Of a stretch of DNA of 53,279 nucleotides, positions 10,827 to 36,741 are shown one piece after another. Below the pieces are notes generated by a model. The model made no database searches. It saw only the letters and a program-made list of their open reading frames with translations, and was not told the origin of the DNA. Position 1 is the first letter of the stretch. Each line of letters begins with the position of its first letter. The position numbers and the translations under genes are program-made. The DNA comes from a virus, in IMG/VR virus record IMGVR_UViG_3300032288_006150, positions 1-53,279 of that record; one strand, given 5' to 3'.

Positions 10827-11555
10827 TTACTTTGTGAAAACCCCTTTCTTTACCATCTTGCCAAGAATATTAGCGCAAGCTATATCCAAAGCTTTTTTAG
10901 TTGCTATACTAATTGTTGACTGATTAAATTTAACTGGATCAACAGTAGCATCAGAAACAAATGTTAATTCTCTTGTCGTCTTAGCTTCCCCCAATCCTGA
11001 AGCAGCTATAATAGCTCCAGTCTCAGCATTGGTGAATCTAACTTGCAAACCGATACGAGTAACTAATAAATTCTTTACTCCGTCTTTAAGATTTACTGTT
11101 TCATCTTCAGAAACAGAATAATCATAACACTCAATTTCAACAAAATAATCGGCAAGTTTGATCTTTCCTCTGCCATCTAGTTTGTTTTCAGAAATACCAG
11201 CTTGTGATGCTTGGAATTGCTTAACCATTCTGTTTTTAATTTCAGTTTTATCTTCTGTAAATTCAAAACGATTTAGATTGTCTAGGTATTCTAATACGAT
11301 ATTGGTTACACCAAGTCCTACTCTCTTTTCTTTCAATTCTGGATATGCTTCGTATGTTTCATCATTGATGCCACACTTTAACAACTGAATGTTCTTTTTA
11401 GGTCCTTCGTAATCTAGATATTGAGAGATGTCAGCTTTTTTTTCAAAGTCTGCTTTAAAATCTTCAGTTTGAGTTTTCCCTATAGTTTGTGCAATTGCAT
11501 TTTCTGAAATTAAACAACTTACTAGGAATGCTGGTATAAGTACAAGTCCTTTCAT
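10827..11555 (-). CDS. CsgG-family outer-membrane/periplasmic protein
   Basis: 242 residues. The N-terminal signal has two possible readings: a lipobox LVSC at Cys14, or signal peptidase I cleavage after NAIA. The mature region follows the CsgG pattern: VGLGVTNIVLEYLDNLNRFEF near residue 80, GKIKLADYFVEIECYDYS, ARIGLQVRF-like strands, and a terminal helix ALDIACANILGKMV. CsgG forms the nonameric curli secretion channel in the outer membrane. CsgG-like genes are known from some marine phages. Here it sits among other exported proteins, which supports an envelope role. Confidence 0.82.
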   Translation of the reverse strand: MKGLVLIPAFLVSCLISENAIAQTIGKTQTEDFKADFEKKADISQYLDYEGPKKNIQLLKCGINDETYEAYPELKEKRVGLGVTNIVLEYLDNLNRFEFTEDKTEIKNRMVKQFQASQAGISENKLDGRGKIKLADYFVEIECYDYSVSEDETVNLKDGVKNLLVTRIGLQVRFTNAETGAIIAASGLGEAKTTRELTFVSDATVDPVKFNQSTISIATKKALDIACANILGKMVKKGVFTK

Positions 11556-12145: not shown

Positions 12146-12775
12146 TTACTCTCCCGAGTTTGCTCTAAGCAATCCACAAATTTGGCATTCTTCTTCACCG
12201 TCATTATTTGCATCTCCCCAAACGTGTTGACAATAACGATGTGGAAAATATTCATCGATTGTTCCGTCTCCGTCATAGTCTAAACCATCTGCTAAGCCGT
12301 CACCGTCTTCGTCGATTTCAACTCCTTTCTTTTTGTCATTAACCGGCTCGGTGGATTCCACTACTTCAGCATCATAAGTTGCTGGTTTATCCTTGGAATT
12401 GGAAATAGCTTGTGAAAAATCTGCAGGGATCAATGGAGTTGGTGGTACGGGATTATTAGGCATGTCTGCAGTATTAGACAAAGAAGTTCCGTCTTCCTCA
12501 TCCATTTTCTGAACTAACATTTTATCTTTATCCGTATCACTGAACCAATAATCGATAATTTTTCCATAACTCCCAATAAATGCTCCAAGTAAAAGAAGCA
12601 GAAGTTCTTTCCACTCTCCGGCTATTTCAGATTTATTTAAAATAGCGAAAAACATTCCCCCTATAATTAACATAAATCCTCCTAATACCAACGCAGTAAT
12701 ATACCATCTGCGTTTCATCATTGCGTTTAAAAGATCCTTAAATCCACTTGGTGTTTGTTGATTGTTATTCATCAT
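12146..12775 (-). CDS. Membrane protein with calcium-type repeats and a Cys pair
   Basis: 209 residues. Two transmembrane segments (residues about 24-46 and 55-74) are followed by a proline-rich linker, then DEDGDGLADGLDYDGDGTIDE at about 155-175, an EF-hand or thrombospondin-type-3-like calcium motif. The end has C-x-x-C (ECQICG). The front half resembles phage holin-type proteins. The acidic tail probably faces the periplasm, where Ca2+ could be sensed. A fusion of holin-like and Ca-binding parts is unusual. Confidence 0.65.
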   Translation of the reverse strand: MMNNNQQTPSGFKDLLNAMMKRRWYITALVLGGFMLIIGGMFFAILNKSEIAGEWKELLLLLLGAFIGSYGKIIDYWFSDTDKDKMLVQKMDEEDGTSLSNTADMPNNPVPPTPLIPADFSQAISNSKDKPATYDAEVVESTEPVNDKKKGVEIDEDGDGLADGLDYDGDGTIDEYFPHRYCQHVWGDANNDGEEECQICGLLRANSGE

Positions 12776-12787
12776 TCAATTTTAATA

Positions 12788-13108
12788 TTACCACTGAGCT
12801 GGTTTTTCTTTAAATTCATCGCCATCTTTCTTTTTAGTTGCAGGTGCTGGTTTAGCTGGTTCCGCAGCTTTCTCTTTAATGATAACAGTTTTACCACCAC
12901 CTGCAGCTTGTTGAGCTTGCTGGTTAGAGTTAGTGATGTTGATTACAGGGGCTGGTGCTGGAGCTGGAGCTGCTTCTTTGTCTCCTCCACCTAATAGTGT
13001 TGAGACCCAAACGCCTCCTGCTGTTACAGCTGTTGTAATAACCCCGATGATAGTTTTCTTTAGACCTGACCAGGTTCCGTCGTTGTGGTCTTGTGTTTCT
13101 TCTGACAT
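12788..13108 (-). CDS. Single-pass membrane protein with Ala-Pro and Lys-rich tail, first gene of operon 1
   Basis: 106 residues: a short N-terminal cytoplasmic part, one hydrophobic helix at 17-40 (TIIGVITTAVTAGGVWVSTLL), then AP repeats, an Asn/Gln-rich stretch and a Lys/Ala-rich end. It looks like a spanning adaptor or holin partner. It follows a 167-base leader that is shared in part with the second operon. Confidence 0.65.
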   Translation of the reverse strand: MSEETQDHNDGTWSGLKKTIIGVITTAVTAGGVWVSTLLGGGDKEAAPAPAPAPVINITNSNQQAQQAAGGGKTVIIKEKAAEPAKPAPATKKKDGDEFKEKPAQW

Positions 13109-13130
13109 TTTTTAAAAATTATATTCAATG

Positions 13131-13149
13131 TTCAGAAAAGACCCTCAAA
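13131..13149 (-). promoter_or_regulatory. Shared leader element (copy 1)
   Basis: Reads TTGAGGGTCTTTTCTGAA on the transcribed strand, 23-41 bases before the start at 13108. Matches the leader of operon 2 at 19957-19971 with one inserted base. Confidence 0.5.
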
Positions 13150-13240
13150 ACTTAGAATTCGCTTTTGGAATATTTCGAAAGACGTTACTTACCCGAATCC
13201 TTTCAAGAATCAAGACGGGCTTGTCGTGTTTTTCTTTCGA

Positions 13241-13272
13241 ACAGTATGAGGATTTTTTCATCTTATATATCT
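13241..13272 (-). promoter_or_regulatory. Shared upstream control element (copy 1)
   Basis: On the minus strand GATATATAAGATGAAAAAAT is followed by CCTCATACTG. It matches 20001-20031 at about 24 of 30 positions and lies about 135 bases before operon 1. The intergenic stretch 13109-13275 holds nothing else I can identify apart from a CACGAC hexamer near 13222. Confidence 0.55.
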
Positions 13273-13275
13273 TTT

Positions 13276-14646
13276 TTACAGCATAATTCTGGATCCGATC
13301 ATGAAATTGTGCAATATTTTTGTTCCTGGCTGGGTACCCCCTGAAAATCTATAATTAAGATTTAACCCAAATCTTTGAGTTAATTTATAATCATACGAGA
13401 AACCAGACATGAATCCAAATTGTCGATTAACTATCGTTTGATTGGCGGAAGGGTTCCATGCTATGGGTGAGCTAGTAATAAATACCTGGGGAGAGATGGA
13501 CACCTTTCGATTTACTTGATAAACTTTCGTCCAAAATCCAATAGATGATACTGACATGGAATAATCATATTTGTTCCCATTCTTTAAGAATAAACTAACC
13601 ACTCCGATGTTATATCCATATGTTCCCATCTTAGGATCTGGTTTAATGTACGTATAACCCTGCATAAGCATATAATTTCCCTGTAGGTAAGCTGCAGTAA
13701 AGGAATAAGAATTAATGCTGCTTAAAGCTCCCTTTTTAAAATTCATCTTAGTGTAACCACCGTTCAAAGCAAATTGATCGAATGTTGTCCAGATCATAGA
13801 GGTTAAGCCCCAGCTTTCTGCTCCTGTCATAGAGGATTTGCTTATTCCGGTAGAAATCATAGCTGAATATCTTCCGTCCTTATTTTCAGTTACTGCAAGA
13901 TCTGACGCAACCAAAGTGGGATTGCTCATAGATTGTCTCTTCTTCTTTTCTTCCTCCTTCTTTTTCTTTTCCTCTTCTTTTTTCTTTTCCTCCTCTTTCT
14001 TCTTTTCCTCCTTGCTCTCTGATTTTTCTTCCTTATTTTCCGATTTTTTTTCTTCTTGTTTGCTCTCGGATTTTTCTTCACTCTTACTTTCAGATTTGGA
14101 TTCAGATTTTTGCTCGGAAGAAGTGCTGCTCTCTTTCTTTGTTTCCCCGCCAGAGCTGGATCCTCCAGAACTAGAACTACTTGAACCTCCTGAAGACTGT
14201 GAACCCCCGCTGGAACTAGCAGGGGTAGAAGAAGCTGCTGATGAACTTGCAGAGGTGCTAGCAGACGAAGATGCTGCAGAAGACGCAGAACTACTCGCAG
14301 CGCTACTCGCTGCAGAAGATGCAGCTTGTGAAGCTGCCGCGGAAGCCGCTTGTGAAACCGTTTGTTGAACTGTTTGTTGAACTATCGTTGTTGCCGGACA
14401 AGGTCTGGAGTTATAATCAGCATACACCTGATTCAGCCATGCCTGCACAGTTCCGTTATTAACTTCAGCAGTGGTAAAAGTCTTTATTTGATTATAAAAA
14501 GCAACTACAACCATTCCGTTTCCCATTGGGGTGGTTACAACTGTTTTTATTTCTCCAGTACACTTATCTACGTAGGTTTGTGTAAATATTTGTGCTTTTG
14601 CTTTGACTGAAAAAATCAACAAGAGGATTATTAATAATCTCTTCAT
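13276..14646 (-). CDS. Secreted low-complexity protein with beta-rich C-terminal domain
   Basis: 456 residues. Signal peptide to KAKAQ (about residue 18), a 75-residue N-terminal domain with C-TG and RPCP cysteines, then Ser/Ala tracts (about 95-165), then a very long Lys/Glu/Ser region (about 168-240) likely to be a rigid charged helix. The C-terminal 210 residues alternate like an outer-membrane barrel (YNIGVVSLFLKNGNKYDYSM) and end in GSRIML. It could be a barrel-anchored stalk protein or a fibre. Last gene of operon 2. The low-complexity part gives long false frames on the other strand. Confidence 0.75.
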   Translation of the reverse strand: MKRLLIILLLIFSVKAKAQIFTQTYVDKCTGEIKTVVTTPMGNGMVVVAFYNQIKTFTTAEVNNGTVQAWLNQVYADYNSRPCPATTIVQQTVQQTVSQAASAAASQAASSAASSAASSSASSAASSSASTSASSSAASSTPASSSGGSQSSGGSSSSSSGGSSSGGETKKESSTSSEQKSESKSESKSEEKSESKQEEKKSENKEEKSESKEEKKKEEEKKKEEEKKKKEEEKKKRQSMSNPTLVASDLAVTENKDGRYSAMISTGISKSSMTGAESWGLTSMIWTTFDQFALNGGYTKMNFKKGALSSINSYSFTAAYLQGNYMLMQGYTYIKPDPKMGTYGYNIGVVSLFLKNGNKYDYSMSVSSIGFWTKVYQVNRKVSISPQVFITSSPIAWNPSANQTIVNRQFGFMSGFSYDYKLTQRFGLNLNYRFSGGTQPGTKILHNFMIGSRIML

Positions 14647-14678
14647 TTTTGTCGTGTGCCGTATTTTTATTTTTGGTT

Positions 14679-15047
14679 TTACAGTTTGTTAAAATCTGTA
14701 ATACCAAGTTGATTTCCTTTCGAATCAAATAAGCCTATTCTGTAAGCAGAAGAGGGTAAAGCTGACGTGTAAACTTTTAAAATGTTATCACCAGCATTAA
14801 CTCTCATTACCTCTTTAGAAACTGTTTTATTAGAAATGTCAAAAATTCTAATTGTAACATCCTGTGCAATGTCGCTTTTAACATTCATAGACACCTCTGT
14901 AGTTACGAACGGGTTTTCTAATTTTATACCAACAGTAGAATTTATTTGTAAAGAATTTGGAACTGTTGGCGGTTCAATTACATTAAAAGGATCTTTTGTA
15001 CATCCTATAAGAGATGTAACAATTAAAAGGGAGATTAGCTTTTTCAT
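14679..15047 (-). CDS. Small lipoprotein (A of a tandem pair)
   Basis: 122 residues with lipobox SLIGC at about residue 16 and mature start TKDPFNVIEPP. The C-terminal 80 residues (DVTIRIFDISNKTVSKEV, then NILKVYTSALPSSAYRIGLF) form an immunoglobulin-like or T9SS-tail-like beta sandwich. It has the same architecture as the next gene (NNSVKIYTKSLP in that one), so the two are paralogues. Confidence 0.75.
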   Translation of the reverse strand: MKKLISLLIVTSLIGCTKDPFNVIEPPTVPNSLQINSTVGIKLENPFVTTEVSMNVKSDIAQDVTIRIFDISNKTVSKEVMRVNAGDNILKVYTSALPSSAYRIGLFDSKGNQLGITDFNKL

Positions 15048-15052
15048 TTTTT

Positions 15053-15403
15053 TTATTTTATTATTATTTTGGTTCTCTTGACTTCGTTCTTATTTAAATC
15101 GTCTAAGATCAAATATAAAACTCCGACAGGAAGAGATTTTGTGTATATTTTAACAGAATTGTTTCCTGTTATCAAATTTATTTTTTCTTTACTTAAGATT
15201 TGTCCGGTATTATAATCTTGTATCTTTAATATAAAAGATCCCTCTTTTTCCATGTTAAAAGATAGTTGATCTGAATCGGAAACTGAAACTTCAGAAACCG
15301 AAAAAATATCCACTACCGGTTTGGGTAAGGGCTCGATATTCTCTTTATAACAAGAAGTTAATGAAAGAGAAAAAATTAATAATACAATCCTAATAAATTT
15401 CAT
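15053..15403 (-). CDS. Small lipoprotein (B of a tandem pair)
   Basis: 116 residues, lipobox SLTSC near residue 18, mature start YKENIEPLPKP. The ending NNSVKIYTKSLPVGVLYLIL parallels DNILKVYTSALPSSAYRIG in the 14679 product. Its start overlaps the stop of... the large secreted protein upstream as TAATG at 15403, tying expression together. Probably a periplasm-facing or surface lipoprotein. Confidence 0.75.
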   Translation of the reverse strand: MKFIRIVLLIFSLSLTSCYKENIEPLPKPVVDIFSVSEVSVSDSDQLSFNMEKEGSFILKIQDYNTGQILSKEKINLITGNNSVKIYTKSLPVGVLYLILDDLNKNEVKRTKIIIK

Positions 15404-17682
15404 TATTGAACTTTTACTTTTAATTGTTTAGAATCAGTTCCTATTGTCTCTATGCTTTCAACAGAAACTAATCCAAGTATATTTTTTAAATCCGATTTTG
15501 ATTTAAATACTATTTTATAACCTAGATTACTTACAGGATTACCGTTGGTGTTTAGTGTTCCTACATTTATTAAGGAAGACTCTTTTCTTGAAAAATTTAT
15601 ATCATTTTTGTTGGTGAATTCCGTTTTGTTGTGATCCAAAATTGAATTATCAAATTTCACAATAAATTGAGTTGCACCAATCTGATTTTGACCAGGATCT
15701 ACAGATATTGTAACTTCTACCATTCCATCTTTTATCTCCATCCAGATATCAGCAATAACATCACCAGTAGAGGAATTTGTTCTAACAGCCATCGACTGTA
15801 TTCCGATTTCTTGTTTGTTACTTAAAGAATTAGGTTGGGAAACCCCAGTAGGTAATGCTGAATGAGAAAGATTTACATCGCCTTTCCACGTAACTGCAAC
15901 ATTGTAAGAGTTTAATTGATTATCAACTATAGATGGTAAATAATAAGATCCGGAGGTAAATCTATAGTCCTGCCAATTATTTGATGCTATAGCATCATAA
16001 TCTGATTTTTTTATCAGTTTAATCATGCTAGTTAACTCGTTACTGCTGTTCCAGATTGTTGATTGTCCAAGTAAATGTTGAAGAAGAATGAAACAATCTT
16101 GCTCATTAAAAGCTCCACTTGAATCAACGTCAGCATTTGCAAACTGTACAGGGGTTGTAAACCAAACGTTGGAATTTCCAAATATCCCATTATCAGACAA
16201 TTGCTTAAATGCTAAATAAACATCTCCGACAGTTACAATACTACTATACAGTCCAGAATAACTAGATCCGTAATATTTAATATCAGAGAAATGTGGTTTA
16301 AAAATTTGATTCTGAGTGAATCCAATGCTACAAGAGAATGCCCAGTTATTATATCCAGCATTTCTTATGTTAGCATTGAAAGATGAAGAACCATCTGTTA
16401 CTTTAGTTAGAGTCGATGGAATAATGTAATGAGCCCAATATGTTGAGGTTTGTTGATATGTTACTGGTCCGTCATAACAATCTAATATGGAAACTCTTTT
16501 TATAGTTGATGGGGAAACACTGCCAAAAGTTGATAAATCAATATAGAGGGTAGTAACACCATTAGAAATATTAACATAAGAATACTCAACCTGTCCTGCA
16601 GAAATTGAACTCTTATATCCATCATTTATTTTATTTTGATCAATATTAGGAGTCATATCAATCTTTCCTAGCGAGTTAAGAGCAGCATAATCACCTGATC
16701 CCTGAACGATTCCCTGGTGGTCAGTAAACATCTTTGTTCTAAATAATGTCTCGTTCACATTAGCACCAAAATCATAAACAAATTGAGCTCTCAATACATT
16801 TCCGTTTGAATGGTTAACTGAATTAGAATAGAATTCTGTAAATGTCTGATCATCGGGATTTGTCCAGGTTCCAAATTCAACAACATACGGATTTGAAAAA
16901 TTGGCTGGTAAATCGTTCCACTGCGAGCCATTCCATTTTGTTACCGCGTAATCTTCGTTACCGCTATTGTTTGGTTCCCCGCCCGCCCAGTTATTATATT
17001 GGCCAACAACATTTCCTGCCGTTTGTCCATTCGAAGTTTTAATGAGAGTTCCGTTTTCAGGTCCAGCATCGATTCTCCATTGACCTTCAACAACTTCATC
17101 AGTTAGAGCAAACCATATTTGATTTTGGGGTACATTATTATAAATAAAATTATCTTCATCTGATGATGTGATTGTTACCAAATATCCTTGTTGACCCTTG
17201 AATGTTTGCTGTGCAGAAAGGGATTTAGCATTTGGATATGTTGCACCTGCTGATATTGGTCTATAAAAGTGACCATTTGATGGATTGTAAAAATATCCGG
17301 TCGGATTCACGGTTGCAGATACTGATATCTGAACATTACCCGAAGTTGCAGTAGTGTTTATTTTTAATGTTGCTAGAGCGGCATTTATGTTAGACATTGT
17401 TCCCGTAAAAGCTAAACGGGTTTTGTTACCACTTAAAGTGTATCCACTTGCAGGGGTTAATCCTGTTGTGGTTGTCATATAAAACGTTGTTCCTGAAGGA
17501 GAGACTGGTAATCCAATAGCACAAAGTAAAATTGAAGTAGAATTAAATCCGCCAAGAGAAAATCCGCTCGCATCTTGTGCAGAAGTACTTAATGCAAAGG
17601 ATTTAGCTTCTGGTGCATTGACTTGTTGTCCATACACACCAGAAGCTAAAAGTAGTAATATTGATACGAATAGATTTCTCAT
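15403..17682 (-). CDS. Large secreted protein with C-type-lectin-like, dockerin-like and cohesin-like modules
   Basis: 759 residues, signal peptide ending GVYGQ (about 19). A beta domain comes first. Residues about 135-280 then form a C-type-lectin-like fold (GYFYNPSNGHFYRP, GYLVTITSSDEDNFI, WFALTDEVVEGQWRI, NNWAGGEPNNSGNEDYA), with WAGGEPNN as the usual sugar/Ca site. About 495-540 has a dockerin-like segment (NADVDSSGAFNEQDCFILLQ). The last 100 residues look like a cohesin-type beta domain (ATQFIVKFDNSILD). A ligand-binding surface or virion-fibre protein is likely. Sits in operon 2 next to a paralogue. Confidence 0.78.
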   Translation of the reverse strand: MRNLFVSILLLLASGVYGQQVNAPEAKSFALSTSAQDASGFSLGGFNSTSILLCAIGLPVSPSGTTFYMTTTTGLTPASGYTLSGNKTRLAFTGTMSNINAALATLKINTTATSGNVQISVSATVNPTGYFYNPSNGHFYRPISAGATYPNAKSLSAQQTFKGQQGYLVTITSSDEDNFIYNNVPQNQIWFALTDEVVEGQWRIDAGPENGTLIKTSNGQTAGNVVGQYNNWAGGEPNNSGNEDYAVTKWNGSQWNDLPANFSNPYVVEFGTWTNPDDQTFTEFYSNSVNHSNGNVLRAQFVYDFGANVNETLFRTKMFTDHQGIVQGSGDYAALNSLGKIDMTPNIDQNKINDGYKSSISAGQVEYSYVNISNGVTTLYIDLSTFGSVSPSTIKRVSILDCYDGPVTYQQTSTYWAHYIIPSTLTKVTDGSSSFNANIRNAGYNNWAFSCSIGFTQNQIFKPHFSDIKYYGSSYSGLYSSIVTVGDVYLAFKQLSDNGIFGNSNVWFTTPVQFANADVDSSGAFNEQDCFILLQHLLGQSTIWNSSNELTSMIKLIKKSDYDAIASNNWQDYRFTSGSYYLPSIVDNQLNSYNVAVTWKGDVNLSHSALPTGVSQPNSLSNKQEIGIQSMAVRTNSSTGDVIADIWMEIKDGMVEVTISVDPGQNQIGATQFIVKFDNSILDHNKTEFTNKNDINFSRKESSLINVGTLNTNGNPVSNLGYKIVFKSKSDLKNILGLVSVESIETIGTDSKQLKVKVQ

Positions 17683-17687
17683 TCATC

Positions 17688-19352
17688 TTAGTCTATAATT
17701 AAATCTATTTTGTTTCCTGCTGCATCAACAGCATCGGATAAAACAAAGTAGAATAATCCTGCTGTGTTAGTTAAACTAACCTTAGGTGTGAAAATTAACT
17801 TATAAGGTGTTCCTGTTTTAATTCTAGCTGTCTTTAATTGATCGATTGAACCAAAGGTTAATCTACCATTATCGTGGGTTGAAAAGTTTGTAATGGTTGA
17901 CCCTGCATCAAATACAACATTATCTAAAGTTAATTTTGAATTGTCATAGTTCATAATAACTTCCAGACCTGCTAATCCTTCTTTTGTTAGTGTTGTAGTT
18001 AAAACTACTTTTCCGTTTTCTAGTTTGGAAGATACACTCAGGGTTGCTTGTTCATTAGCTTTCGCTTGATATAAACCAACCATCTGGGATGCTTCTGTTG
18101 TTATGTTCCCAAAAGAAGCAGTAACGTTTCTGTTTGCTGAGTTAGTAACTATGCCGTTTTGAATATTCTGTGCAATAACTGCAGGATCTGTTGAGTGTGA
18201 CCAGTTTAAATCTCCACCCCAAGCAAATACAGCATTTGCGGTTTGGTTGTTAGCTGTAACGAGAACTCTGTATTTGGGGGTTCCATCTAACCAGCTTTGG
18301 TTTAATAATCCACTATACCATCTAACTTGAGTAGCTGTCGAAGTTGGGATGAACGCAGTTGCTGAAACGTCCTGTCCCATAACATGAGCGAAAAGACTGT
18401 ATGAGTCTGACTCGTTAAACACATTATCATTCTTTGTTACGTTACCAACTTTTCTTTCAAAAGTTGGATATGTGAAATAGGTAGGATTTCCGGAAATATC
18501 AGTTTGTGAGTGTCCTAAAAAAGCCTTGTAAGCATCAGACACAGTAATAACGTTGTTCATCCAAGCTTTCTGGAATGATGCTCCAACAAAAACACCAACG
18601 GAGTCTCCGATTTTTAACTGGGTGAAAGTTGCCTCTCCTGCAGCATCTAGTGGTGCGGTGTAAAGAGGTTGCTGTGACCAATCTATGTCTCCGGTTCCGT
18701 CATTTTTCAATCTCATAAGTTGAACATTATGATCGGTAATTGGATATCCATTAGGAAATGCAACTTTAACTTTAAATAAAGAAGATCCACCCGTTACATT
18801 TCCAAGTGAAACGGCATTACCAGATGTTGTGATTGGAGCTATAAAAGCACCGGCAGCATCATTAGAATATGAAAGATTTAGCTGATGTATGTTAGTATAA
18901 TCAGTGTGGTCTTTAACAATAAATTTCTGAGTAGCAAAATCCCCGCTAAGAGAGGCATCCGCTCTTTGAATTGATAATTGGCCAACATTCCAATCACCAT
19001 TAACAGCGTAGTTCCATGGAGTTAATTGATACTGCTCATAAAGTGAAGTGGACGCTTTAGTTGCATTTGGAGTAAACTTATAGTTGTTCCACTCAGTATT
19101 ATATGTTTGTACCTGATTGCCTTGGGTAAAAGCAGTAGTTCCTGCTAACGGAAGCAAAGCCTTATTATTATATTGATATCTTAACCAAAAATATCTCGGA
19201 GTAGTAGTTCCCCTGTCAATATTGTACTTAACTGTAAGGGTATCTCCAACTCTATATGGTCCTGCTGGAGTGACAGTTCTATTTACGGTCAACTGTGCAA
19301 AGACTGACGTGGCCGCCAAAATTAGTGTGGCCAGGGTAATTAGCTTTTTCAT
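17688..19352 (-). CDS. Secreted protein with dockerin-like and cohesin-like modules
   Basis: 554 residues from the ATG at 19352 (ATGA overlap with the gene before); signal peptide ends SVFAQ. A beta-rich N-terminal region is followed by VSDAYKAFLGHSQTDISG and FNESDSYSLFAHVMGQD (dockerin-like, about 290-350) and a C-terminal cohesin-like domain (GLEVIMNYDNSKLTLDNVVF) ending in VDAAGNKIDLIID. Order and motifs parallel the 759-residue neighbour but without the lectin domain. The pair could bind each other or a shared partner. Exported, function unknown. Confidence 0.75.
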   Translation of the reverse strand: MKKLITLATLILAATSVFAQLTVNRTVTPAGPYRVGDTLTVKYNIDRGTTTPRYFWLRYQYNNKALLPLAGTTAFTQGNQVQTYNTEWNNYKFTPNATKASTSLYEQYQLTPWNYAVNGDWNVGQLSIQRADASLSGDFATQKFIVKDHTDYTNIHQLNLSYSNDAAGAFIAPITTSGNAVSLGNVTGGSSLFKVKVAFPNGYPITDHNVQLMRLKNDGTGDIDWSQQPLYTAPLDAAGEATFTQLKIGDSVGVFVGASFQKAWMNNVITVSDAYKAFLGHSQTDISGNPTYFTYPTFERKVGNVTKNDNVFNESDSYSLFAHVMGQDVSATAFIPTSTATQVRWYSGLLNQSWLDGTPKYRVLVTANNQTANAVFAWGGDLNWSHSTDPAVIAQNIQNGIVTNSANRNVTASFGNITTEASQMVGLYQAKANEQATLSVSSKLENGKVVLTTTLTKEGLAGLEVIMNYDNSKLTLDNVVFDAGSTITNFSTHDNGRLTFGSIDQLKTARIKTGTPYKLIFTPKVSLTNTAGLFYFVLSDAVDAAGNKIDLIID

Positions 19353-19882
19353 TGTGTTAATAATTGTTTTATTGCGTTTCCACATACCTTTTTAATAACG
19401 GTAGAGACAGATTGCTGATTCATCTTACCACCTTCGTCAACTATCAAGGTTGACACGGAAATTTCGGAGGCTTTCTCTGTTATCAAGCACTCTTTTATTT
19501 TTTTCCCCTTATTATCAAGAAGATATGCCTTTATTTTTAAAACTGTTTCTGCATTATTCTTATGAAACACTGCCACACTAGATTTGGTGGTCTCAACGTC
19601 AAAGAAAAGAAGATCTATGTTGATTTTATAATCAAATTTGGTCTCGTCTTCTACAATTTCAAAATCATTTTCCTGCAAATATTCCTCTAGAAGATTTCTA
19701 AAACCGAATGTTAATGGTCTAGATCCAGCTAAGCTTCCTATAACGATTTTGTTGTTTATGTCACCAATCAGAACATACTTGCTTTGGCCAATAGCCTGAT
19801 TAAACGAAAGCACCAAAAGGATGCTAAAAATTACCAATATTTTTTGTGGAATCTTGCTTATAATTTTTTCCAGTAGCTTCAT
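19349..19882 (-). CDS. Exported protein related to CsgG, first gene of operon 2
   Basis: 177 residues, signal/anchor helix at 14-33 ending AIGQ. The mature part LLEEYLQENDFEIVEDETKF, YKINIDLLFFDVET and the terminal helix KKVCGNAIKQLL have the CsgG/LppC-like arrangement of helix, strand and terminal helix seen in the 10827 product. No lipobox. It probably works in the periplasm with the other operon products. Confidence 0.65.
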   Translation of the reverse strand: MKLLEKIISKIPQKILVIFSILLVLSFNQAIGQSKYVLIGDINNKIVIGSLAGSRPLTFGFRNLLEEYLQENDFEIVEDETKFDYKINIDLLFFDVETTKSSVAVFHKNNAETVLKIKAYLLDNKGKKIKECLITEKASEISVSTLIVDEGGKMNQQSVSTVIKKVCGNAIKQLLTQ

Positions 19883-25677: not shown

Positions 25678-27084
25678 TTATTTAAAAAAGATTTCCTTTA
25701 CCTTTTTAGCATACGGATCAAGCTCGTAGAAGTCTTTTTCAATAAACTTATTACCAGATCTAATAAAAACCGATTTTTTTATTAGATCGTTATTTGGATC
25801 CCCCGATGGCATAACACCGGAATCAATGTATCCTATATCTTTTTTCCCGTCAGAATTAAAATCAGTATAGATTAAACTCCATTTTGAATTTGGTCTCTTT
25901 GAAGAATTTATTGTGTATTCAATCCAGCTGTTATCCAATATGAATGATCCGTCTTTGCGTTGGACGTATACCTTTATTTCCCATTTTTGATCCCCTGATT
26001 GTCCTGTAATGCAATCTAAAGCTACTAAATCTTTAATCCCGTCTTGATTTAAATCGTCCGCCACGTAATCAATTCTTTCCTGATTAAAAATTCCAGTCAA
26101 TGGGAGATTAGTCAAAGAGCTTTGATTAAATCTCCCGCCACCCAGATTTAATAAAAATCTATTGGGGGAATTTGGAGATTCACCTGTTCCTAGCAATAGA
26201 TCATTCTTAGAATCTTCGTTTAGATCCATTGCCCATGCACGAAAAACAAGACCAGCACCATTAGGAACGCTCTCTCCAAAGCTATTGTTAGATGGAAAGT
26301 TTACAACATCAGAAGAGAAGTGTGCAAAATTTCGGTTGGAAAAATAAGGATATGAAGGTATCCCCCAGAAAATATAGGTGTGAGAATTTGCAGCAACGAT
26401 TAAATCAGGGAGATTATCCCCGTTCATATCTCCAACATCACCACCGCAGTAAGTAAACATATTGAAAAGGGATTGGGGTTCTAGATCTAACTGAGAAATG
26501 GTATATTTTCCATTGCCATCACTAAGCAGAATAGTACATTTTTCATTTGGACCTTGTGAGCACTCATCATTGTGACCAATAACAACAATATCGACAAAAT
26601 TATCAGAATTCAAATAAAGGGAAATTGATCTAATAGGACCACCGATAAAGTTCGTTCCATCGTTGATTAGATTTTTCTCCTCAAAAGTTTTATTTGAAGG
26701 ATTCCATAACAGGAAAGAAAGATTAGCAGCTTTACCACGACATGCTCCACCTCCATTAAAAATATCGACCCATCCATCATTATTGAAGTCTCCCAATGAA
26801 AGGGCAAACGTGTTTGATGAATATTCATATTTTCCATTACCGTATGGACCTGTTAAAATCTTAACTCCTTTTTGATAAGCACCAACAAAAAGGTCCGCCA
26901 TAACTGGAAGATTCTTCCAATAGCTTGCACCCATGCTCTTTGCATCAGGACTAACCTTGTATCCTTGAAAATCTTCGGAATTGAATGAAGACGAGGAAGA
27001 GATCACCGATTTTTCTGGCTCTAATACATCCTCCTTGTAACAGGACGAAAGAAAAATTAAAAATATAAAGAGGCCTTTTTTCAT
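25678..27084 (-). CDS. FG-GAP/VCBS beta-propeller lipoprotein
   Basis: 468 residues. Lipobox SSC at Cys15 followed by YKEDVLEPEK. Repeated calcium-type loops DFNNDGWVDI, DMNGDNLPDL, DLNEDSKNDLL, DLNQDGIKDLVA and DFNSDGKKDIG are spaced through the protein, so it is an integrin-alpha-like seven-bladed propeller. Such domains bind partners on the cell surface. The start is preceded by a canonical -7 box (27101-27108), so it probably uses host RNA polymerase. It shares no operon with neighbours. Confidence 0.85.
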   Translation of the reverse strand: MKKGLFIFLIFLSSCYKEDVLEPEKSVISSSSSFNSEDFQGYKVSPDAKSMGASYWKNLPVMADLFVGAYQKGVKILTGPYGNGKYEYSSNTFALSLGDFNNDGWVDIFNGGGACRGKAANLSFLLWNPSNKTFEEKNLINDGTNFIGGPIRSISLYLNSDNFVDIVVIGHNDECSQGPNEKCTILLSDGNGKYTISQLDLEPQSLFNMFTYCGGDVGDMNGDNLPDLIVAANSHTYIFWGIPSYPYFSNRNFAHFSSDVVNFPSNNSFGESVPNGAGLVFRAWAMDLNEDSKNDLLLGTGESPNSPNRFLLNLGGGRFNQSSLTNLPLTGIFNQERIDYVADDLNQDGIKDLVALDCITGQSGDQKWEIKVYVQRKDGSFILDNSWIEYTINSSKRPNSKWSLIYTDFNSDGKKDIGYIDSGVMPSGDPNNDLIKKSVFIRSGNKFIEKDFYELDPYAKKVKEIFFK

Positions 27085-27785: not shown

Positions 27786-29465
27786 TTATCTTTTGGAAAT
27801 TATGAAATTACCTAAAATTAAATAATCCATTTCAGAATCTAAAAATCTGATTATGGCGTCTTCTGGATGCAAAGTTATGGTTTGATCTTTAAAATTAAAT
27901 GATGTATTCAGAATAACCGGTATTCCTGTTAGTTCTCCGAATTTTTTAATCAGGTGGTAATATCTAGGATTGTCATATCGGTTTACGGTCTGAACTCTGG
28001 CAGTTCCGTCTATATGGGTAACAGCGGGTAAATCCCATCCTGGTTTAACCTTGACCACCATATTCATATACGGAACATCACCAGAAATATCAAAGAACTT
28101 GTCTGCACTTTCTTCCGTCACTGAAGGAGCAAAGGGTCTAAATGTTTCTCTTTTCTTGATAACTAGATTTATTCTATCCTGCATATCTTTTATAAGTGGA
28201 GACGCTATGATGGATCTATTACCTAATGCTCTTGATCCGAATTCCATTTTTCCCTGGAACCATCCAATAACTTTCCCATCAGCTAGTTTTTTTGCTACGT
28301 CATTTATAAGCTCAGATGTTTCCATTTTAGAGAAGCTTATGTTGTCAAATTTTTCTATTGACGAAAGAATTCTGTGCTCGTTAAAGTCTGGACCTTGATA
28401 AGGTGATATTGGGCCTTTTCTCTTTTGTCTTCTGATTACATTTATATAAAATAAACATGCACCTATAGCAGAACCCCCGTCTGAAGGAGAAAAGGGAATC
28501 CAGATTTTTTTATAATTACTTCTTTGCTTTATTAATCCATTAGCTAATCCATTATAAGCACATCCTCCTCCTAAACAAATATTCTCTGATGCATTTAATG
28601 AAAAACTGAAATTAACAAATTCTAAAAATATATCCTCATAGACCTTTTGAACAGCAGCAGCAAGATCTTTGTGTTCTTTTAGAATTGGATCTCCAGGAAT
28701 ACGTGGATGAATTCCTAGATAATCTAAAAGATTCTCGTTGAACATTATTCGGTCAGAAACGTGCCAAGAGAAATATTTCATATTGATCTTTAGATCTCCG
28801 TTATTGAAATCCATTAAATCTCTAAGTTTTTGGTAAAAGATTTTAGAATCACCATACGCGGCAAGACCCATTAATTTATACTCCCCCTCGTTTGGTTTAA
28901 ATCCGATGAATGCGGTGAAAGCGGAATAAAAAAGTCCCAATGAATGGGGATAATTTACCGAATGCAATTTGGATATTTTATTTCCAATTGCTTTGGAAAT
29001 TGTTAACGTCTCCTTTTCCCCTACTCCGTCAACTGTAATGATATTAGATTCTTCAAAATCAGAGGTGAAGAACGAAAGAGAGGAATGCGAAAGATGATGG
29101 TCAACAATTTTTAGTGTTTTTTTAAATCCAATCTCTTGTCTAAGAAAATTCTTTAAGTCAAACTGTGGTCCTTTATTAAAAATCCATTTTATAATTCTGG
29201 CAAAATTTTTAATTGGATATTTTTTAAAATTATCTACTATCCTTTCTTTCTTTAAATCAGGATTTTCGTACCAACAAACAACACTAACATCGTCAATGGA
29301 AATTCCATTTGTTCTGAGAAGCCATTTTATAGTATTAAGGGGAAAAGATGAATCACCCTTTATACCAGTAAATCTTTCCTCCTCCGCAGCACCCATCAGA
29401 GTATTATTTCTAAATAGACATGCAGCTGAATCGTGGTAAAATGCAGAAATTCCTAGGATGTACAT
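27786..29465 (-). CDS. Carbamoyltransferase (NodU/CmcH/TobZ family)
   Basis: 559 residues, close to the family's usual 550-600. N-terminal Kae1-like domain starts MYILGISAFYHDSAACL, with DHHLSHSSLSFF (metal-binding histidines) and a VDGVGEKETL segment. The C-terminal YrdC-like part has GKVIGWFQGKMEFGSRALGN with GSRALGNRS as family signature and ends with NTSFNFKDQT. The enzymes use ATP and carbamoyl phosphate to carbamoylate sugars or small molecules. In a phage it could modify surface glycans or phage DNA; no partner gene is evident. Confidence 0.92.
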   Translation of the reverse strand: MYILGISAFYHDSAACLFRNNTLMGAAEEERFTGIKGDSSFPLNTIKWLLRTNGISIDDVSVVCWYENPDLKKERIVDNFKKYPIKNFARIIKWIFNKGPQFDLKNFLRQEIGFKKTLKIVDHHLSHSSLSFFTSDFEESNIITVDGVGEKETLTISKAIGNKISKLHSVNYPHSLGLFYSAFTAFIGFKPNEGEYKLMGLAAYGDSKIFYQKLRDLMDFNNGDLKINMKYFSWHVSDRIMFNENLLDYLGIHPRIPGDPILKEHKDLAAAVQKVYEDIFLEFVNFSFSLNASENICLGGGCAYNGLANGLIKQRSNYKKIWIPFSPSDGGSAIGACLFYINVIRRQKRKGPISPYQGPDFNEHRILSSIEKFDNISFSKMETSELINDVAKKLADGKVIGWFQGKMEFGSRALGNRSIIASPLIKDMQDRINLVIKKRETFRPFAPSVTEESADKFFDISGDVPYMNMVVKVKPGWDLPAVTHIDGTARVQTVNRYDNPRYYHLIKKFGELTGIPVILNTSFNFKDQTITLHPEDAIIRFLDSEMDYLILGNFIISKR

Positions 29466-29915: not shown

Positions 29916-31112
29916 TTAATTACCCTTTGCTGGAAACCGGGTCCACCCATTTGTCCAAGCTGGAGTACTTAGTTCCGGTATTACTGAATCTATTTCTTTG
30001 TTACCTTTGCCTAATGATAATGTTTTTAATTGATCGCTGGTTAGTATCGTTGTTGCCCTGCTTATAAAATTAAGAGAAGGCGAAAATGCTCCTACTGAAT
30101 TGTTTTCAAATACAGAAATACCATCCTTAACAAACTGAGCAGTTTCGTTGCTTTCCAAACTTAGTCCTCCTTTCATCCATCCCCAGATTACGCTATTCTT
30201 GATCGTGAATTGTGTTGCTCTTCTAAATCTTAAACCCAAATTATGGTTAGCTAGTGCTGAAGCGTTATTAGGACCAACTAAAATCATATTTTCTAATTTA
30301 GGATGGGTGAAAGGCTGGGCAGATGAACCTGTTCCATCATTGTCACATTCTACCCCATTTCCAGCATCACCGTTATCTACAAATTGTGGATCTCTTCTTG
30401 ATACACCATTTGTAATAGTTCCAGTATATCCAAAATCGAAATCGAAATCATCATCTGCAGTTGAAAATGCGTATATGTTTTTAGCATTTACTGTTCCTCC
30501 AAAAAATTCAAAAGCATCATCATTAGCGTAAATAGTTTGAACATTCTCGATGATTGTTCCATTACCAACACCACCTAATGTTAATGCGTTAATTTCAGAG
30601 TTTGGCATTGCTGCAATACCAGCATATTCAATCCTTACATATTTTAGAATACCACTATTATCTAAATCATTAGTACCACCATACGGTCTACCAATCCCAC
30701 CCTCGATAGTCGGTTCTGAGGTTCTGTTGGTTTTTGCCCTTCCCAATATTACAATCCCACCCCAATCACCAGGGGCTCTTTCTCCGGCTGCTCTACCAGA
30801 TGTAAATATTATTGGTTTTGATACAGTTCCCTCCGCAATTATTTGTGCACCCCTTTCGATACACAATGCTCCCTTTTCAGCTATATCAGAAACAATTGTT
30901 GTACCAGGCTGAATAATAAGTTTAGCACCATCTGTTACATAAACATATCCTTTTAATGTCCAAACTTTATCTGACGTTAAAGTAGTGGTAGTGTTGATGT
31001 TTCCAGTTAATGTCGTTGTTAATGGGATGTTTATAGGAGCATCATCTCCACCCAATTCTTTTTGGCAACTAAATAGTCCAAAAATTAAAATACCTGCTAA
31101 TAGCTTTTTCAT
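29916..31112 (-). CDS. Beta-helix-like surface lipoprotein, partner of the TonB receptor
   Basis: 398 residues. Lipobox LFSC at Cys16 then QKELGGDD. The body has right-handed beta-helix-like repeats (TLKGYVYVTDGAKLIIQPGT, KPIIFTSGRA, GTIIENVQTIYANDDAFEFF). Many GGT/NDDAF stretches resemble the partner lipoproteins that often follow TonB-dependent receptors in Bacteroidota. Its start overlaps the receptor's stop as ATGA at 31109-31112, so both are made from one message. Surface-exposed ligand binding is the likely job. Confidence 0.85.
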   Translation of the reverse strand: MKKLLAGILIFGLFSCQKELGGDDAPINIPLTTTLTGNINTTTTLTSDKVWTLKGYVYVTDGAKLIIQPGTTIVSDIAEKGALCIERGAQIIAEGTVSKPIIFTSGRAAGERAPGDWGGIVILGRAKTNRTSEPTIEGGIGRPYGGTNDLDNSGILKYVRIEYAGIAAMPNSEINALTLGGVGNGTIIENVQTIYANDDAFEFFGGTVNAKNIYAFSTADDDFDFDFGYTGTITNGVSRRDPQFVDNGDAGNGVECDNDGTGSSAQPFTHPKLENMILVGPNNASALANHNLGLRFRRATQFTIKNSVIWGWMKGGLSLESNETAQFVKDGISVFENNSVGAFSPSLNFISRATTILTSDQLKTLSLGKGNKEIDSVIPELSTPAWTNGWTRFPAKGN

Positions 31113-33589
31113 AGTGTTAAGTTTAATATTAGGGAAATCGTTTGTTCGTTATTTGTTTTTATTAAATTTCTATTTTGTAATTTTTGATAATAGATCGATG
31201 ATTGTCCAAATACATCGCCTATTGCCATTTTAATTTCTCCGTTTTTGATTTTACGTAAAAAAGTTATGTCTAATACATCTCTACTATTTTCAAAGATGTC
31301 TGGATATCCTTGAAATCCAACAGCAGATATTCTATCTCCTACTCTATTGTAAGTTATGTTAAGTGTATTTTTTTCTTTGTGGAGATTAAATCCTCCATTT
31401 AATACATAATTTGATTGACCCTGTAATTGCCTTTTAGATCCATTTACATTTACTTCAGAATTCATTATTGAAGTGTTGGTGTACAGATCTAACCAATCTG
31501 TTACCTTTTTACGGAATTCTAATTCAACCCCATAAAGAATAGCATTATCAGGATTTGTGTAGGTTAATAATAAATTGGACGGAACTGAACCATCTGCTAC
31601 TATCTGTTCGATAGGCTTAATGAATTTTTTACCAAATAACGATACGGAAATGTTCTCTCCTGCCTTCTGATAAAATTCCCATTTTAAATCTAAGTTATAG
31701 ATATCCGATTTTTCCAATTTTGAATTACCTAATATCTGTGCATTTCTTACAAAATCATAATAAGCAAAATTAGCAACCTCTCTAAATTCAGGTCTTGCTA
31801 ATGTTTTACTCAGTGAAAATCTATATTTTACTTTATCTAAATTATATGAAAGGTTTAATGACGGAAGAAGGTCTAAATACTCTCTGTCTACGTTTACTTT
31901 TTGTCCGCTAAAATCTGCGGTATTAACATTGAATAGGTTGTACTCCCCTCTTAAACCTGTGTTTAATTTTAACTTGCCCCATTCATTTTCATACATTGAG
32001 TAAACTGATCCTAAATCAAAATCTGCAGTGTACCTGTCTGTATTATTTGTTATTTCATCCAGCATATCAGTTGAAAGATATCTGAAGATTCTTGCGTTAA
32101 ATCCCCTAATCTTTTTTAGATAACTTCCCCCAATCTTAATATTACCAAAATCTTTGTTTATGTTACCATTAAAACTGTTTTCGTCCATTACACTCCAAAA
32201 ACGATACGTGTCTCTCCATGCAATAGAATATGGTTCGTTGACACCTAATGATTTTGTGATCGGGTTTACCCTATAATCGGGTTGTTCTCTGAATATAAAA
32301 TTATATCCCAAATTAAAATCCCAATTCTTGAGCTTCCCATCAAATTGGGAATTGATAACAACATTATTAATATGATTAGAAGAATTGCTTAAAACGTTTT
32401 GTACATTATCAAAGTTATTACCATTTCGTGTTAGATAGCTATCATCCTTTTGGTAGTTTAGTAGGGTTTTCCAGCTATATCGATTTTCTCCTAAATAAGT
32501 TAAATTTAATAAACCGCTCGTGGAAAATCTTTTCGTGTATAGAATCTCTTTATAATCATAAGCTAACTCAGTTGATGATTGATAGTCTTTCCTTTCGATC
32601 TTATTTAAGGTGAAAGAATTTCTTACGGTTGAACTGAATAGAGAATTAAATTTACCCTTAGTATATCCAAACGAAAGACCTCCGCTTAAATTTGGAATTG
32701 ACTGAAAAATATTTTCCTGGGGATTACCAAATTGTTTAGTGAATAATCTTTTATCACCGTTGCTACTGATACGATATTTGTATGTGGATGGAAAGGTTGA
32801 TGGAAACTCTGTAGATTTAACTGTCTTAAAATCTCTGAATGTAGAAACTGATCCAGCACCACTTCCTAAAGAGATATTAAAAAAATTATCTGAAACCTCC
32901 TTTGTTGTAATCTGAACCAAACCACCACTCCAATCCCCTGGTAAATTTGCTGATGCTGATTTAGCAACTATGATATTATCAATCAATCCGGTTGGAATTA
33001 TATCAAAAGAAAAAGCCCTCCTATCTGGCTCAGTTGATGGAAGTATAGTTTTGTTTAAAAAAGCAGAATTATATCGATCTGCTAATCCCCTTACTAACAC
33101 AAACTTATCATTCTGTATTGTTACCCCGCTTACTCTTTTAAGGGCATCGCCAACGTTTCTATCTGGAGTTTTTTTAATGAATTCTATTGATACACCATCA
33201 GATACAACATTGCTATTTCTAACTGATCTAATTATCGAAACATCTGTTGTTTTTTGAGGAATAGCTCTAACTACAACCTCATTCAATCCCGTTACATTCT
33301 CCTCGAGCAAAACATTAAATAAAGTATCGGATGTAAAATTTACGGTCTTAATTAAATCCTTGTATCCAACAAAAGTTGCTTTAATATCATATTTTCCTGA
33401 TGGAATTTGAATCTCATAGTTTCCAAATTCGTTAGAAATTGCAGAAAAGGATTTTTGATTTGCATCCTTAAATATGATATGGACGAAATATAATTTTTCG
33501 GTAGGTGACTCTGTTTTACCTGATATTTTAATTTGAGAAAAGGATAGAAGGGGTAATAAAACAAATAATAATAGAATGGATTTTTTCAT
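31109..33589 (-). CDS. TonB-dependent receptor
   Basis: 826 residues. Signal peptide to SFSQ (about 20), then a carboxypeptidase-regulatory-like domain (about 22-95, ending KATFVGYKDLIKTV), a plug domain (about 115-235: PDRNVGDALKRVSGVTIQND, LVRGLADRYN, NIIVAKSASANLPGDWSGG), and a 580-residue barrel that ends in SLILNLTL. This is a complete, Bacteroidota-type uptake receptor. Phages rarely carry one. It could replace a host receptor to block superinfection or feed the cell. The -7 box TAACTTTG (33670-33677) lies about 80 bases before its start. Confidence 0.93.
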   Translation of the reverse strand: MKKSILLLFVLLPLLSFSQIKISGKTESPTEKLYFVHIIFKDANQKSFSAISNEFGNYEIQIPSGKYDIKATFVGYKDLIKTVNFTSDTLFNVLLEENVTGLNEVVVRAIPQKTTDVSIIRSVRNSNVVSDGVSIEFIKKTPDRNVGDALKRVSGVTIQNDKFVLVRGLADRYNSAFLNKTILPSTEPDRRAFSFDIIPTGLIDNIIVAKSASANLPGDWSGGLVQITTKEVSDNFFNISLGSGAGSVSTFRDFKTVKSTEFPSTFPSTYKYRISSNGDKRLFTKQFGNPQENIFQSIPNLSGGLSFGYTKGKFNSLFSSTVRNSFTLNKIERKDYQSSTELAYDYKEILYTKRFSTSGLLNLTYLGENRYSWKTLLNYQKDDSYLTRNGNNFDNVQNVLSNSSNHINNVVINSQFDGKLKNWDFNLGYNFIFREQPDYRVNPITKSLGVNEPYSIAWRDTYRFWSVMDENSFNGNINKDFGNIKIGGSYLKKIRGFNARIFRYLSTDMLDEITNNTDRYTADFDLGSVYSMYENEWGKLKLNTGLRGEYNLFNVNTADFSGQKVNVDREYLDLLPSLNLSYNLDKVKYRFSLSKTLARPEFREVANFAYYDFVRNAQILGNSKLEKSDIYNLDLKWEFYQKAGENISVSLFGKKFIKPIEQIVADGSVPSNLLLTYTNPDNAILYGVELEFRKKVTDWLDLYTNTSIMNSEVNVNGSKRQLQGQSNYVLNGGFNLHKEKNTLNITYNRVGDRISAVGFQGYPDIFENSRDVLDITFLRKIKNGEIKMAIGDVFGQSSIYYQKLQNRNLIKTNNEQTISLILNLTL

Positions 33590-33669: not shown

Positions 33670-33677
33670 CAAAGTTA
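33670..33677 (-). promoter_or_regulatory. Bacteroidota -7 box TAACTTTG before the TonB receptor
   Basis: Exact TAnnTTTG; a TTG lies 15 bases upstream (33693-33695), slightly closer than the usual 17-21, so the promoter is moderate. The rest of 33590-33711 is AT-rich and otherwise empty. Confidence 0.55.
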
Positions 33678-33711
33678 ATATTAGAACAATCGCAAGATAA
33701 TATATGAAAAA

Positions 33712-34500: not shown

Positions 34501-35430
34501 TTAAACCATATTTTTAGCTAGCATGTCGTCTCTAAATGCAGTAGATTTTGCTAGGGTCTCTTGGAAGATAGGTCTACTTAAATCATTACCTAAACCTGAG
34601 TTAACATGGAAGACTGCTTTAAGTGCTGCATCTTTATCTGGAAATCCGTTAGGATCGTTAGATCCATAAAGAGATTTAACTTTAGGATTTTTTAAATTCT
34701 CAATAAAATATAAAACAGCAACTTCAGCAGCAATATCAAGATCGTTCAATGCATCTGGATTACTTACAAAGTTAACGCTCTTGCCTAGTTTTCCGTCCTT
34801 GTCATAAATCTTCTGCATTTTTTCATAACCTGCCTTGAAAGTTATCCCGTTGAATCCTCTTCCTAGATATTTAGCTCCATCACCTGGTTGGGTGTTTCCC
34901 ATTTTTTGAGATGCTCCGGTCGGATCATCAGGTCCGTAAACTCTATCCCAGAATTTAGATGGATCTGCCTTGAGTGCGTTTATTTCAGCATCACTTAAAG
35001 TGGAAACTCTTTTTCCGAAAATCTTTCTGATCCTGTCGTTACTAGTATTGGTATATGGCTCTTCGTTCTGAGGTGCCCAACCACATTCTTTACCTATAAC
35101 TCCTTGGATAGAAGCTCTCATATTTTTATCAGTAATTTCGTGTCTATCCATTGCTTTGTTCACCGCTTCTACACCCTTTTTAACATCTTCTGCGGTGGGG
35201 ACCTTAGCTCCACTTCCTTGTAATCTTTCTCCCCATGTAGAACCACCTCCTTCTGCGTCTGCAGGGATAAATCCAGCATCTCCGAGAATCTTTCCTGCGG
35301 ATTTTAATAAATCGCCGAAGGAATCAAAACCTCCCCCCGATGCGGGTGCCGGTGCTGGAGCAGGTGCTGGAGCAGGAGGTTTAGTCTCTTGCTCGTTAAT
35401 AAATTTTAAAAAGGGATGTATGTGTTTCAT
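34501..35430 (-). CDS. Tagged GH19-like endolysin
   Basis: 309 residues. The tag is MKHIHPFLKFINEQ, with I-N-E at 11-13. An Ala-Pro linker (about 18-31) follows, then a GH19 chitinase/lysozyme-like domain: GVIGKECGW (putative catalytic Glu) with NTSNDRIRKIFGKRV, then GAKYLGRGFNGITFKAGYEK and NPDALNDLDIAAEVAVLYFI. It cuts peptidoglycan glycan or chitin-type bonds. No signal peptide. If the tag works as in T4, it would be carried inside the virion rather than secreted by a holin. Confidence 0.85.
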   Translation of the reverse strand: MKHIHPFLKFINEQETKPPAPAPAPAPAPASGGGFDSFGDLLKSAGKILGDAGFIPADAEGGGSTWGERLQGSGAKVPTAEDVKKGVEAVNKAMDRHEITDKNMRASIQGVIGKECGWAPQNEEPYTNTSNDRIRKIFGKRVSTLSDAEINALKADPSKFWDRVYGPDDPTGASQKMGNTQPGDGAKYLGRGFNGITFKAGYEKMQKIYDKDGKLGKSVNFVSNPDALNDLDIAAEVAVLYFIENLKNPKVKSLYGSNDPNGFPDKDAALKAVFHVNSGLGNDLSRPIFQETLAKSTAFRDDMLAKNMV

Positions 35431-35433: not shown

Positions 35434-35748
35434 TTAATTTCTGAATTTATGTGGGAACATCATTCTTAATTCGTGTCCCTGAGGAATATCTTTCTTTCTA
35501 ATACCAAAAATCTTTTCCTCTGGACAAGGATCTTCTCCATTCCATTTGAAACCATTATTACAAGCCCAGGTTTTCATGCCTTGATTATAACTCTGACCTG
35601 TGGAATATGGAAATCTAATTCCAGCATCATTTTGAATGGAATCTATACGTCCACCTTTAACAGTAAAAATAATTTCCCTTCCCTGTCTAGAGGTTAGTTT
35701 TATTTCCTGTGTGTCAGAATAAGATTCGTATACTTGTAAATGCTTCAT
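35434..35748 (-). CDS. Tagged small protein with two cysteines
   Basis: 104 residues, MKHLQVYESYSD with V-Y-E at 6-8. Later CNNGFKWNGEDPCPEEKIFG suggests a disulfide or metal pair. Basic C-terminus. No family recognised. Its start follows a GATATATAA element that lies in the stop of the gene upstream. Confidence 0.7.
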   Translation of the reverse strand: MKHLQVYESYSDTQEIKLTSRQGREIIFTVKGGRIDSIQNDAGIRFPYSTGQSYNQGMKTWACNNGFKWNGEDPCPEEKIFGIRKKDIPQGHELRMMFPHKFRN

Positions 35749-35751: not shown

Positions 35752-35760
35752 TTATATATC
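35752..35760 (-). promoter_or_regulatory. GATATATAA element
   Basis: Three bases before the start of the gene at 35434-35748; its TAA is the stop codon of the upstream gene (…Asp-Ile-stop). Confidence 0.4.
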
Positions 35761-36741
35761 TTGCTTAAATGGACCTATTGTTTTACACATAATGATAAGA
35801 CCATCTCTTTTAGAGACAAGAACCGAGGTTATTTCGGAAACATAATCTCTATATCCAATTTCATCCGTTCCTCTCTCTGATATTATCTTGGTGCCAACAT
35901 CAAATACTTTGAAACTAGGAAGTCCTCCAATAGGGGGCTTAAATTCCATTCTAATCCCTCCAAAACTATCACGATTTGATGCTAATTGAAAATCCTTTAT
36001 CTCTTTTGTTACTTTTTGTCCATCCTTATTAAGATATGAAATTTTATTTCCTGTTTTAATACCTATTTGGAATTCTGGTCTAAGTTTATTAAAAAGTTCA
36101 GGATTCCTCGTTACCGTAATTTCAGACCTAGTATTCTCTTTATATCTCTCTGGGTCATCCAGATCTATCATCTTTATTTTTGGGGATACTGCTATATCAT
36201 TTCCGTCTTTGTCAGTCTCCTCGGCATTAACAATTCTGTAGCTTCTAAGATTTTTCTTTGCAGATTGATGAATCATATCACGCCCAGCTGTAGCGAGCAT
36301 TTCCTCTTTCGGGATAGGATTTTGGCATCCTTCGCATCTTCTAGGAAATAACATCAAAGTATAGGTTACGTCACCGTGTGAAACGGCTCCATAAACAGAT
36401 CCAGAATAGGTTTCCCTTACAGTCTCCTCTTTTGGAACAGAAAGAATTGGATAATATAAGATATCACCTTTTTTTAAAACTATATCTCCAAAATGGAAAA
36501 CTGTAGTGTATGCATAATCTATCCTAGGGTATTTGTATTTAAGAATATTTACAGAGCATTCTTTTAAGTGTTCCTCGATTTTTTTCCTAGCGAATGATAA
36601 ATCCTCTTCTGATAACCCATCTACCCCACCAATAAACTGGAAATTCTTTCTCAAGTCCATCCTGCTCTTGAAGTGGTCATGATGCTTGTTTTCCCACAGC
36701 AACGAAGATTCAAAAAGTTTAAAGCTTAAAAGAAATTTCAT
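35752..36741 (-). CDS. Tagged protein of unknown function
   Basis: 329 residues beginning MKFLLSFKLFESSLLWENKH, with L-F-E at 9-11. A C-x-x-C (CEGCQNP, near residue 135) may bind zinc. The remainder is beta-rich (KVFDVGTKIISERGTDEIGYRD). One of the larger tagged proteins; no family recognised. Confidence 0.72.
   Translation of the reverse strand: MKFLLSFKLFESSLLWENKHHDHFKSRMDLRKNFQFIGGVDGLSEEDLSFARKKIEEHLKECSVNILKYKYPRIDYAYTTVFHFGDIVLKKGDILYYPILSVPKEETVRETYSGSVYGAVSHGDVTYTLMLFPRRCEGCQNPIPKEEMLATAGRDMIHQSAKKNLRSYRIVNAEETDKDGNDIAVSPKIKMIDLDDPERYKENTRSEITVTRNPELFNKLRPEFQIGIKTGNKISYLNKDGQKVTKEIKDFQLASNRDSFGGIRMEFKPPIGGLPSFKVFDVGTKIISERGTDEIGYRDYVSEITSVLVSKRDGLIIMCKTIGPFKQDI

Follow-up and report, generated by a model that had tools for sequence, protein, structure and literature searches.

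What use would a phage have for a TonB-dependent receptor (TBDT) of its own, encoded together with a surface lipoprotein? The question is raised by two genes on the minus strand of a virus record in IMG/VR (IMGVR_UViG_3300032288_006150), the whole 53,279-nucleotide stretch of which is the window analysed here and which also encodes endolysins and other phage proteins. An earlier sequence-only reading of this DNA had offered two answers: the phage might replace or mask a receptor of its host, or it might change nutrient uptake during infection.

The receptor gene (31109..33589, minus strand) was defined by its open reading frame and by domain search, and its coordinates, its length of 826 residues and its regulatory-like, plug and barrel domains were all confirmed. 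The protein is built of a signal peptide, a CarboxypepD_reg-like domain, a TonB-box-like segment (LNEVVVRA), a plug and an OMP_b-brl_3 barrel, with significant Pfam matches to CarbopepD_reg_2 (E 9e-11), Plug (E 1e-7) and OMP_b-brl_3 (E 8e-26); the first domain is absent from some phage relatives, which are about 750 residues long. A profile search of the PDB matched known TBDTs, mainly in their N-terminal and plug domains. In NCBIfam the receptor matched TIGR01782 (TonB-Xanth-Caul) alone, at 157.6 bits and below the cutoff of 310. Pairing of a TonB receptor with a surface lipoprotein recalls SusCD and PusCD, an identity that was rejected because the searches revealed neither a SusD domain in the lipoprotein (Pfam, NCBIfam) nor a SusC/RagA match (TIGR04056) for the receptor.

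The 398-residue surface lipoprotein (29916..31112, minus strand) was assigned from its open reading frame, its structural model and its likeness to proteins in the literature. It starts with a signal sequence and lipobox (LFSC-QKELGG), and in most phage relatives the lipobox leads into C-x-K-(D/E)-L-G, which we take to be compatible with a Bacteroidota surface-export signal. Searches of Pfam, NCBIfam and PHROG gave no match, nor did single-sequence and profile searches of the PDB. The AlphaFold2 model is a parallel beta-helix (pLDDT 91) for which Foldseek returned weak pectate-lyase-like and tailspike matches (best E 0.006; Pel9A TM 0.42), bearing out the beta-helix-like body described earlier. 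Alignment of 50 phage and bacterial lipoproteins left 36 columns invariant, including eight acidic residues (D198, D199, E202, D220, D221, D224, E255, and D257) whose presence in both groups suggests a retained site. In some bacteria a single open frame of 1439 residues contains three copies of the lipoprotein domain (G378:C52:78238-81885 and similar).

Relatives of the receptor were found in at least 94 viral stretches and relatives of the lipoprotein in at least 137, with identities of 61-86% and 73-92%, respectively, among those listed. The viral contigs bearing the pair are incomplete fragments; a T4-type capsid gene (Gp23) was present in 18 and a terminase in 20 of 40 long ones. Since the pair recurs in many independent viral contigs, with the gene overlap kept throughout, an assembly chimera is ruled out, and the pair is neither chimeric nor absent from other phages but genuinely phage-borne, as had been claimed. 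Two “Bacteriophage sp.” entries from GenBank/INPHARED (MT837092, MT838075) were rejected, being short, unverified contigs of fecal origin that resemble pieces of bacterial (Bacteroidales) DNA.

The translational coupling proposed for the two genes is real: they share an ATGA stop/start overlap (31109..31112, minus strand), and these four bases are kept in 127/127 adjacent viral pairs measured, whereas in the bacterial pairs that were examined short gaps mostly separate the two genes. The canonical Bacteroidota -7 box said to precede them stands only as a motif. A weak -7-like sequence, TAACTTTG, lies 88 bases upstream of the receptor start (approximately 33670..33680, minus strand) and is not conserved, being found upstream of 17 of 65 distinct relatives against 11.8 expected from shuffles, many of the 17 inside the gene. 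With 64 occurrences across the window, no TTG-17/23-spaced -33 element beside this copy and a near-chance frequency in relatives, the motif does not indicate a promoter.

The function of the pair is best approached through its bacterial relatives. The nearest 20 bacterial homologues were picked by identity alone, 9 kb were fetched on either side, and neighbours were identified by BLAST against reference genes from two Chitinophagaceae loci (L162 and L163). The lipoprotein adjoins a TBDT in all 20, and at least one phosphate (PHO)-type setting was present in 17/20: PhoR-like and PhoB-like regulators in 15, a PhoU-like DUF47 protein in 14 and the transporter PiT in 11, alongside a conserved predicted porin with no Pfam match in eight. 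Family checks agreed with these assignments for PiT (PF01384, E 7e-95), DUF47 (PF01865, E 1e-25) and PhoB (best TIGR02154, E 2.7e-66, below its cutoff), and with one or two PiT genes per 3-6 Mb genome, we estimate that a 19-kb window would contain one by chance about 1% of the time. No PHO genes (PhoBR, PiT, PhoU-like) neighbour the pair at the phage loci, and the phage pair is therefore a family homologue moved out of its locus.

A described counterpart exists in the phoBR operon of Flavobacterium johnsoniae, where the TBDT Fjoh_0545 lies with the lipoprotein FII (Fjoh_0546), a pectin-lyase fold, and both are induced only under Pi depletion, with fold-change values of 8.0 and 9.9 in Table 1 of that study (PMC8115612). 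The Pfam trio of Fjoh_0545 (PF13715, PF07715, PF14905) equals the three domains of the phage receptor, and FII, like the phage lipoprotein, is a beta-helix protein without a Pfam family (PMC8115612); a locus in Flavobacterium micromati (L235) has the same gene order. In contrast to this PHO-regulated bacterial pair, the phage pair is found in T4-like phages, without PHO neighbours and with a 4-base overlap. The Caulobacter crescentus surface lipoprotein ElpS (Cc0170) is similarly produced under phosphate starvation and occurs together with the TBDT Cc0171 (PMC2996285), and the phage receptor scores, below cutoff, to the TonB-Xanth-Caul family. Unlike the phage protein, ElpS is alphaproteobacterial and released by a type II system, and the likeness is drawn from published descriptions and distant matches. 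The phage locus has two hallmarks of a PHO-linked TBDT and FII/ElpS-type pair, namely the three TBDT domains and an adjacent homologous beta-helix lipoprotein (up to 63% identity, trees, model), and its lipoprotein is a relative of the FII/ElpS low-phosphate type. Published induction of such a pair by phosphate depletion is that of F. johnsoniae.

We found no well-described phage example in the open-access literature, where a search for phage TonB receptors gave none, and a 2024 soil-phage survey makes no mention of TonB in its text; with no PHROG family covering the receptor or the lipoprotein either, this agrees with the sequence-only reading, which knew of no such phage pair.

Because 17 of the 20 nearest bacterial homologues sit in PHO loci and the F. 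johnsoniae pair is Pi-induced, we propose a PHO role: the pair is probably a phage-owned version of the Bacteroidota PHO outer-membrane system, installed in the host and raising phosphorus import during infection. The earlier suggestion of a change in nutrient uptake is thereby supported by homology and made specific, pointing to the phosphate-starvation TBDT and lipoprotein family (17/20 PHO loci; Fjoh_0545/0546). The phage would express both proteins during infection; the lipoprotein, presumably exported to the cell surface, would capture or help liberate a phosphorus compound (phosphate or organophosphate), and the receptor would import it to the periplasm, powered by the TonB/ExbBD of the host, so that replicating its large DNA genome might no longer be held back by phosphorus supply. 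As with phage phosphorus auxiliary metabolic genes, the pair is genuinely carried by phages and of bacterial origin, and by analogy it may serve as cyanophage PstS and other phage phosphorus genes are thought to, raising phosphorus acquisition by the infected cell (PMC10976474, PMC10987575). PstS, however, is a periplasmic binding protein, and the products of the phage phosphorus genes known so far work in the periplasm, at the inner membrane or in the cytoplasm, whereas the present pair would be an energised outer-membrane import system. If this is true, nutrient takeover by phages extends to the outer membrane, across distant lineages that infect abundant Bacteroidota.

Several observations count against the proposal. 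In one cyanophage, low phosphate is reported to leave phage DNA replication itself unimpaired (PMC10976474). PhoH, the sole phosphorus-linked gene looked for, occurs in 13/20 long pair-bearing contigs and is not specific to phosphorus, and the phage neighbourhood consists of envelope proteins and a CsgG-like pore instead of phosphorus genes. The long branches between phage and bacterial copies (31-41% identity for the receptor) mean that the substrate could have changed, and the same uptake system might have been turned to metal chelates, oligosaccharides or nucleotides, for example. A pectate-lyase-like fold and the size of a TonB-dependent channel permit many ligands, and glycan binding was suggested for the FI/FII/FIII lipoproteins by Lidbury et al. 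(PMC8115612); we nonetheless consider another substrate very unlikely, as the closest relatives lie in PHO loci and have the invariant residues in common with the phage proteins. The phage pairs are tractable versions of the PHO transporter with which the substrate question could be addressed in bacteria too.

Phylogenetic analysis, based on quick tree searches with SH-aLRT support only and, for the receptor, a simple model, placed the phage lipoproteins (27 representatives) in one clade and the phage receptors (29) in another, each with 100% support. Both clades are nested among Bacteroidota, beside the Chitinophagaceae PHO-locus pairs (L162, L163) and their relatives, and the Bacteroidota hosts are taken from this gene tree. 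A lipoprotein homologue is present in 334/399 genomes of the Chitinophagaceae order, with best identities to the phage protein of 61-63%. The pair is under purifying selection (median dN/dS of about 0.15 for both genes). Contigs with two Gp23 types that share about 38-39% identity carry lipoproteins 74-93% and receptors 63-86% identical between types, and pairs this similar in phages with such divergent capsids imply transfer between phage lineages. The lipoprotein is missing from 18 contigs with related Gp23 (about 53-71%) and is accordingly accessory in the wider group, an inference limited by the fragmentary contigs. The 634.8-kb uncultured phage LR745206.1 (62601-94949) has a distantly related pair from these two families, with the gene order reversed; as it is placed elsewhere in the tree, we take this pair to be an independent acquisition.

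These results also bear on the proposal that the pair displaces, masks or substitutes a TonB receptor of the host and so bars sibling or rival phages. TonB receptors are common as phage receptors, outer-membrane proteins and lipoproteins of phages that block or replace receptors are known (T5 Llp, the Lc porin of phage PA-2), and passage of genes between phage lineages is expected of a competitive trait. T5 Llp and Lc are, however, single proteins and not receptor-lipoprotein pairs. The phage copies form an old clade, their lipoproteins reaching no more than 63% identity to the cellular ones sampled, and the pair is thus not recently copied from a receptor that hosts now have. A decoy, moreover, would need no lipoprotein, TonB-box, plug or invariant acidic residues, yet the lipoprotein stays conserved and every pair retains the coupling of its two genes. 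With no positive evidence for it and a poorer fit, receptor replacement or superinfection exclusion appears unlikely.

In many phages the pair is linked to further envelope genes. Window positions 10140-19882 (minus strand) encode signal-peptide proteins, lipoproteins, a CsgG-like pore and Por_Secre_tail-like small lipoproteins. The pore gene (10827..11555, minus strand) was recognized by a Foldseek match to CsgG (4uv2, E 3e-6; model pLDDT 62) and directly or nearly adjoins the pair in many relatives, as does a block of envelope proteins, mostly with signal peptides or lipoboxes (12146..19882, minus strand), which contains a 759-residue C-type lectin domain protein (15403-17682, minus strand). 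The gene order in many relatives is k-j-i-h-g-e-d-c-TBDT-LIPO-f-b. A virion-structural reading of this 10-20 kb block, based on one weak PHROG match, was rejected because the match falls in a segment rich in Ser and the proteins of the block have signal peptides.

Pair and block may thus have a joint role in surface remodelling. Taken further, the pair could be part of a cell-surface machine of the phage, with the CsgG-like pore and the lectin-bearing, signal-peptide proteins, serving in adhesion, aggregation or timed release, the TBDT having been recruited as a structural part and not for uptake. The position of the pair inside the block in many relatives favours this, as does the distribution of the CsgG-like gene, which occurs in 15/20 of the long contigs bearing the pair and in 0/18 of the Gp23 relatives that lack the pair. 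CsgG genes are known from pelagic phages and have been proposed to act as uptake pore, lysis regulator or means of sibling capture (PMC7029224, PMC9004378). The block is, however, absent within 10 kb of many pair-bearing loci and 10 kb off in the window, and the bacterial relatives show PHO genes and no such block, which makes a purely structural role improbable. A combination with phosphorus import can be drawn more broadly: lineage-crossing, T4-like large phages of Bacteroidota might carry a long-standing energised phosphorus importer linked to the CsgG-like pore and adhesins, the outer membrane being rebuilt for nutrient capture. We put this forward tentatively, as a possibility at somewhat less than even chances. 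An importer of this kind would also raise the testable question of which factor is limiting for large phages in waters poor in phosphorus.

Beside the pair lies a NodU-like carbamoyltransferase (27786-29465, minus strand), with a homologue upstream of the pair in three relatives (L004, L005, L014), and an FG-GAP repeat protein with a lipobox (25678-27084, minus strand) is another predicted surface lipoprotein. An ADP-glyceromanno-heptose 6-epimerase (39360-40412, minus strand; TIGR02197, above cutoff) shows that this phage carries a gene for LPS-core heptose. Many proteins have MK(H/Y/F)...(F/Y)ES-like N-termini (window positions 22984-23577, 34501-35430, 35434-35748, and 35752-36741; also LR745206.1, 62601-94949), which resemble the sequences that target T4 internal proteins to the capsid. 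Between positions 44000 and 51000 of the window the GC content climbs from about 0.35 to 0.40-0.47.
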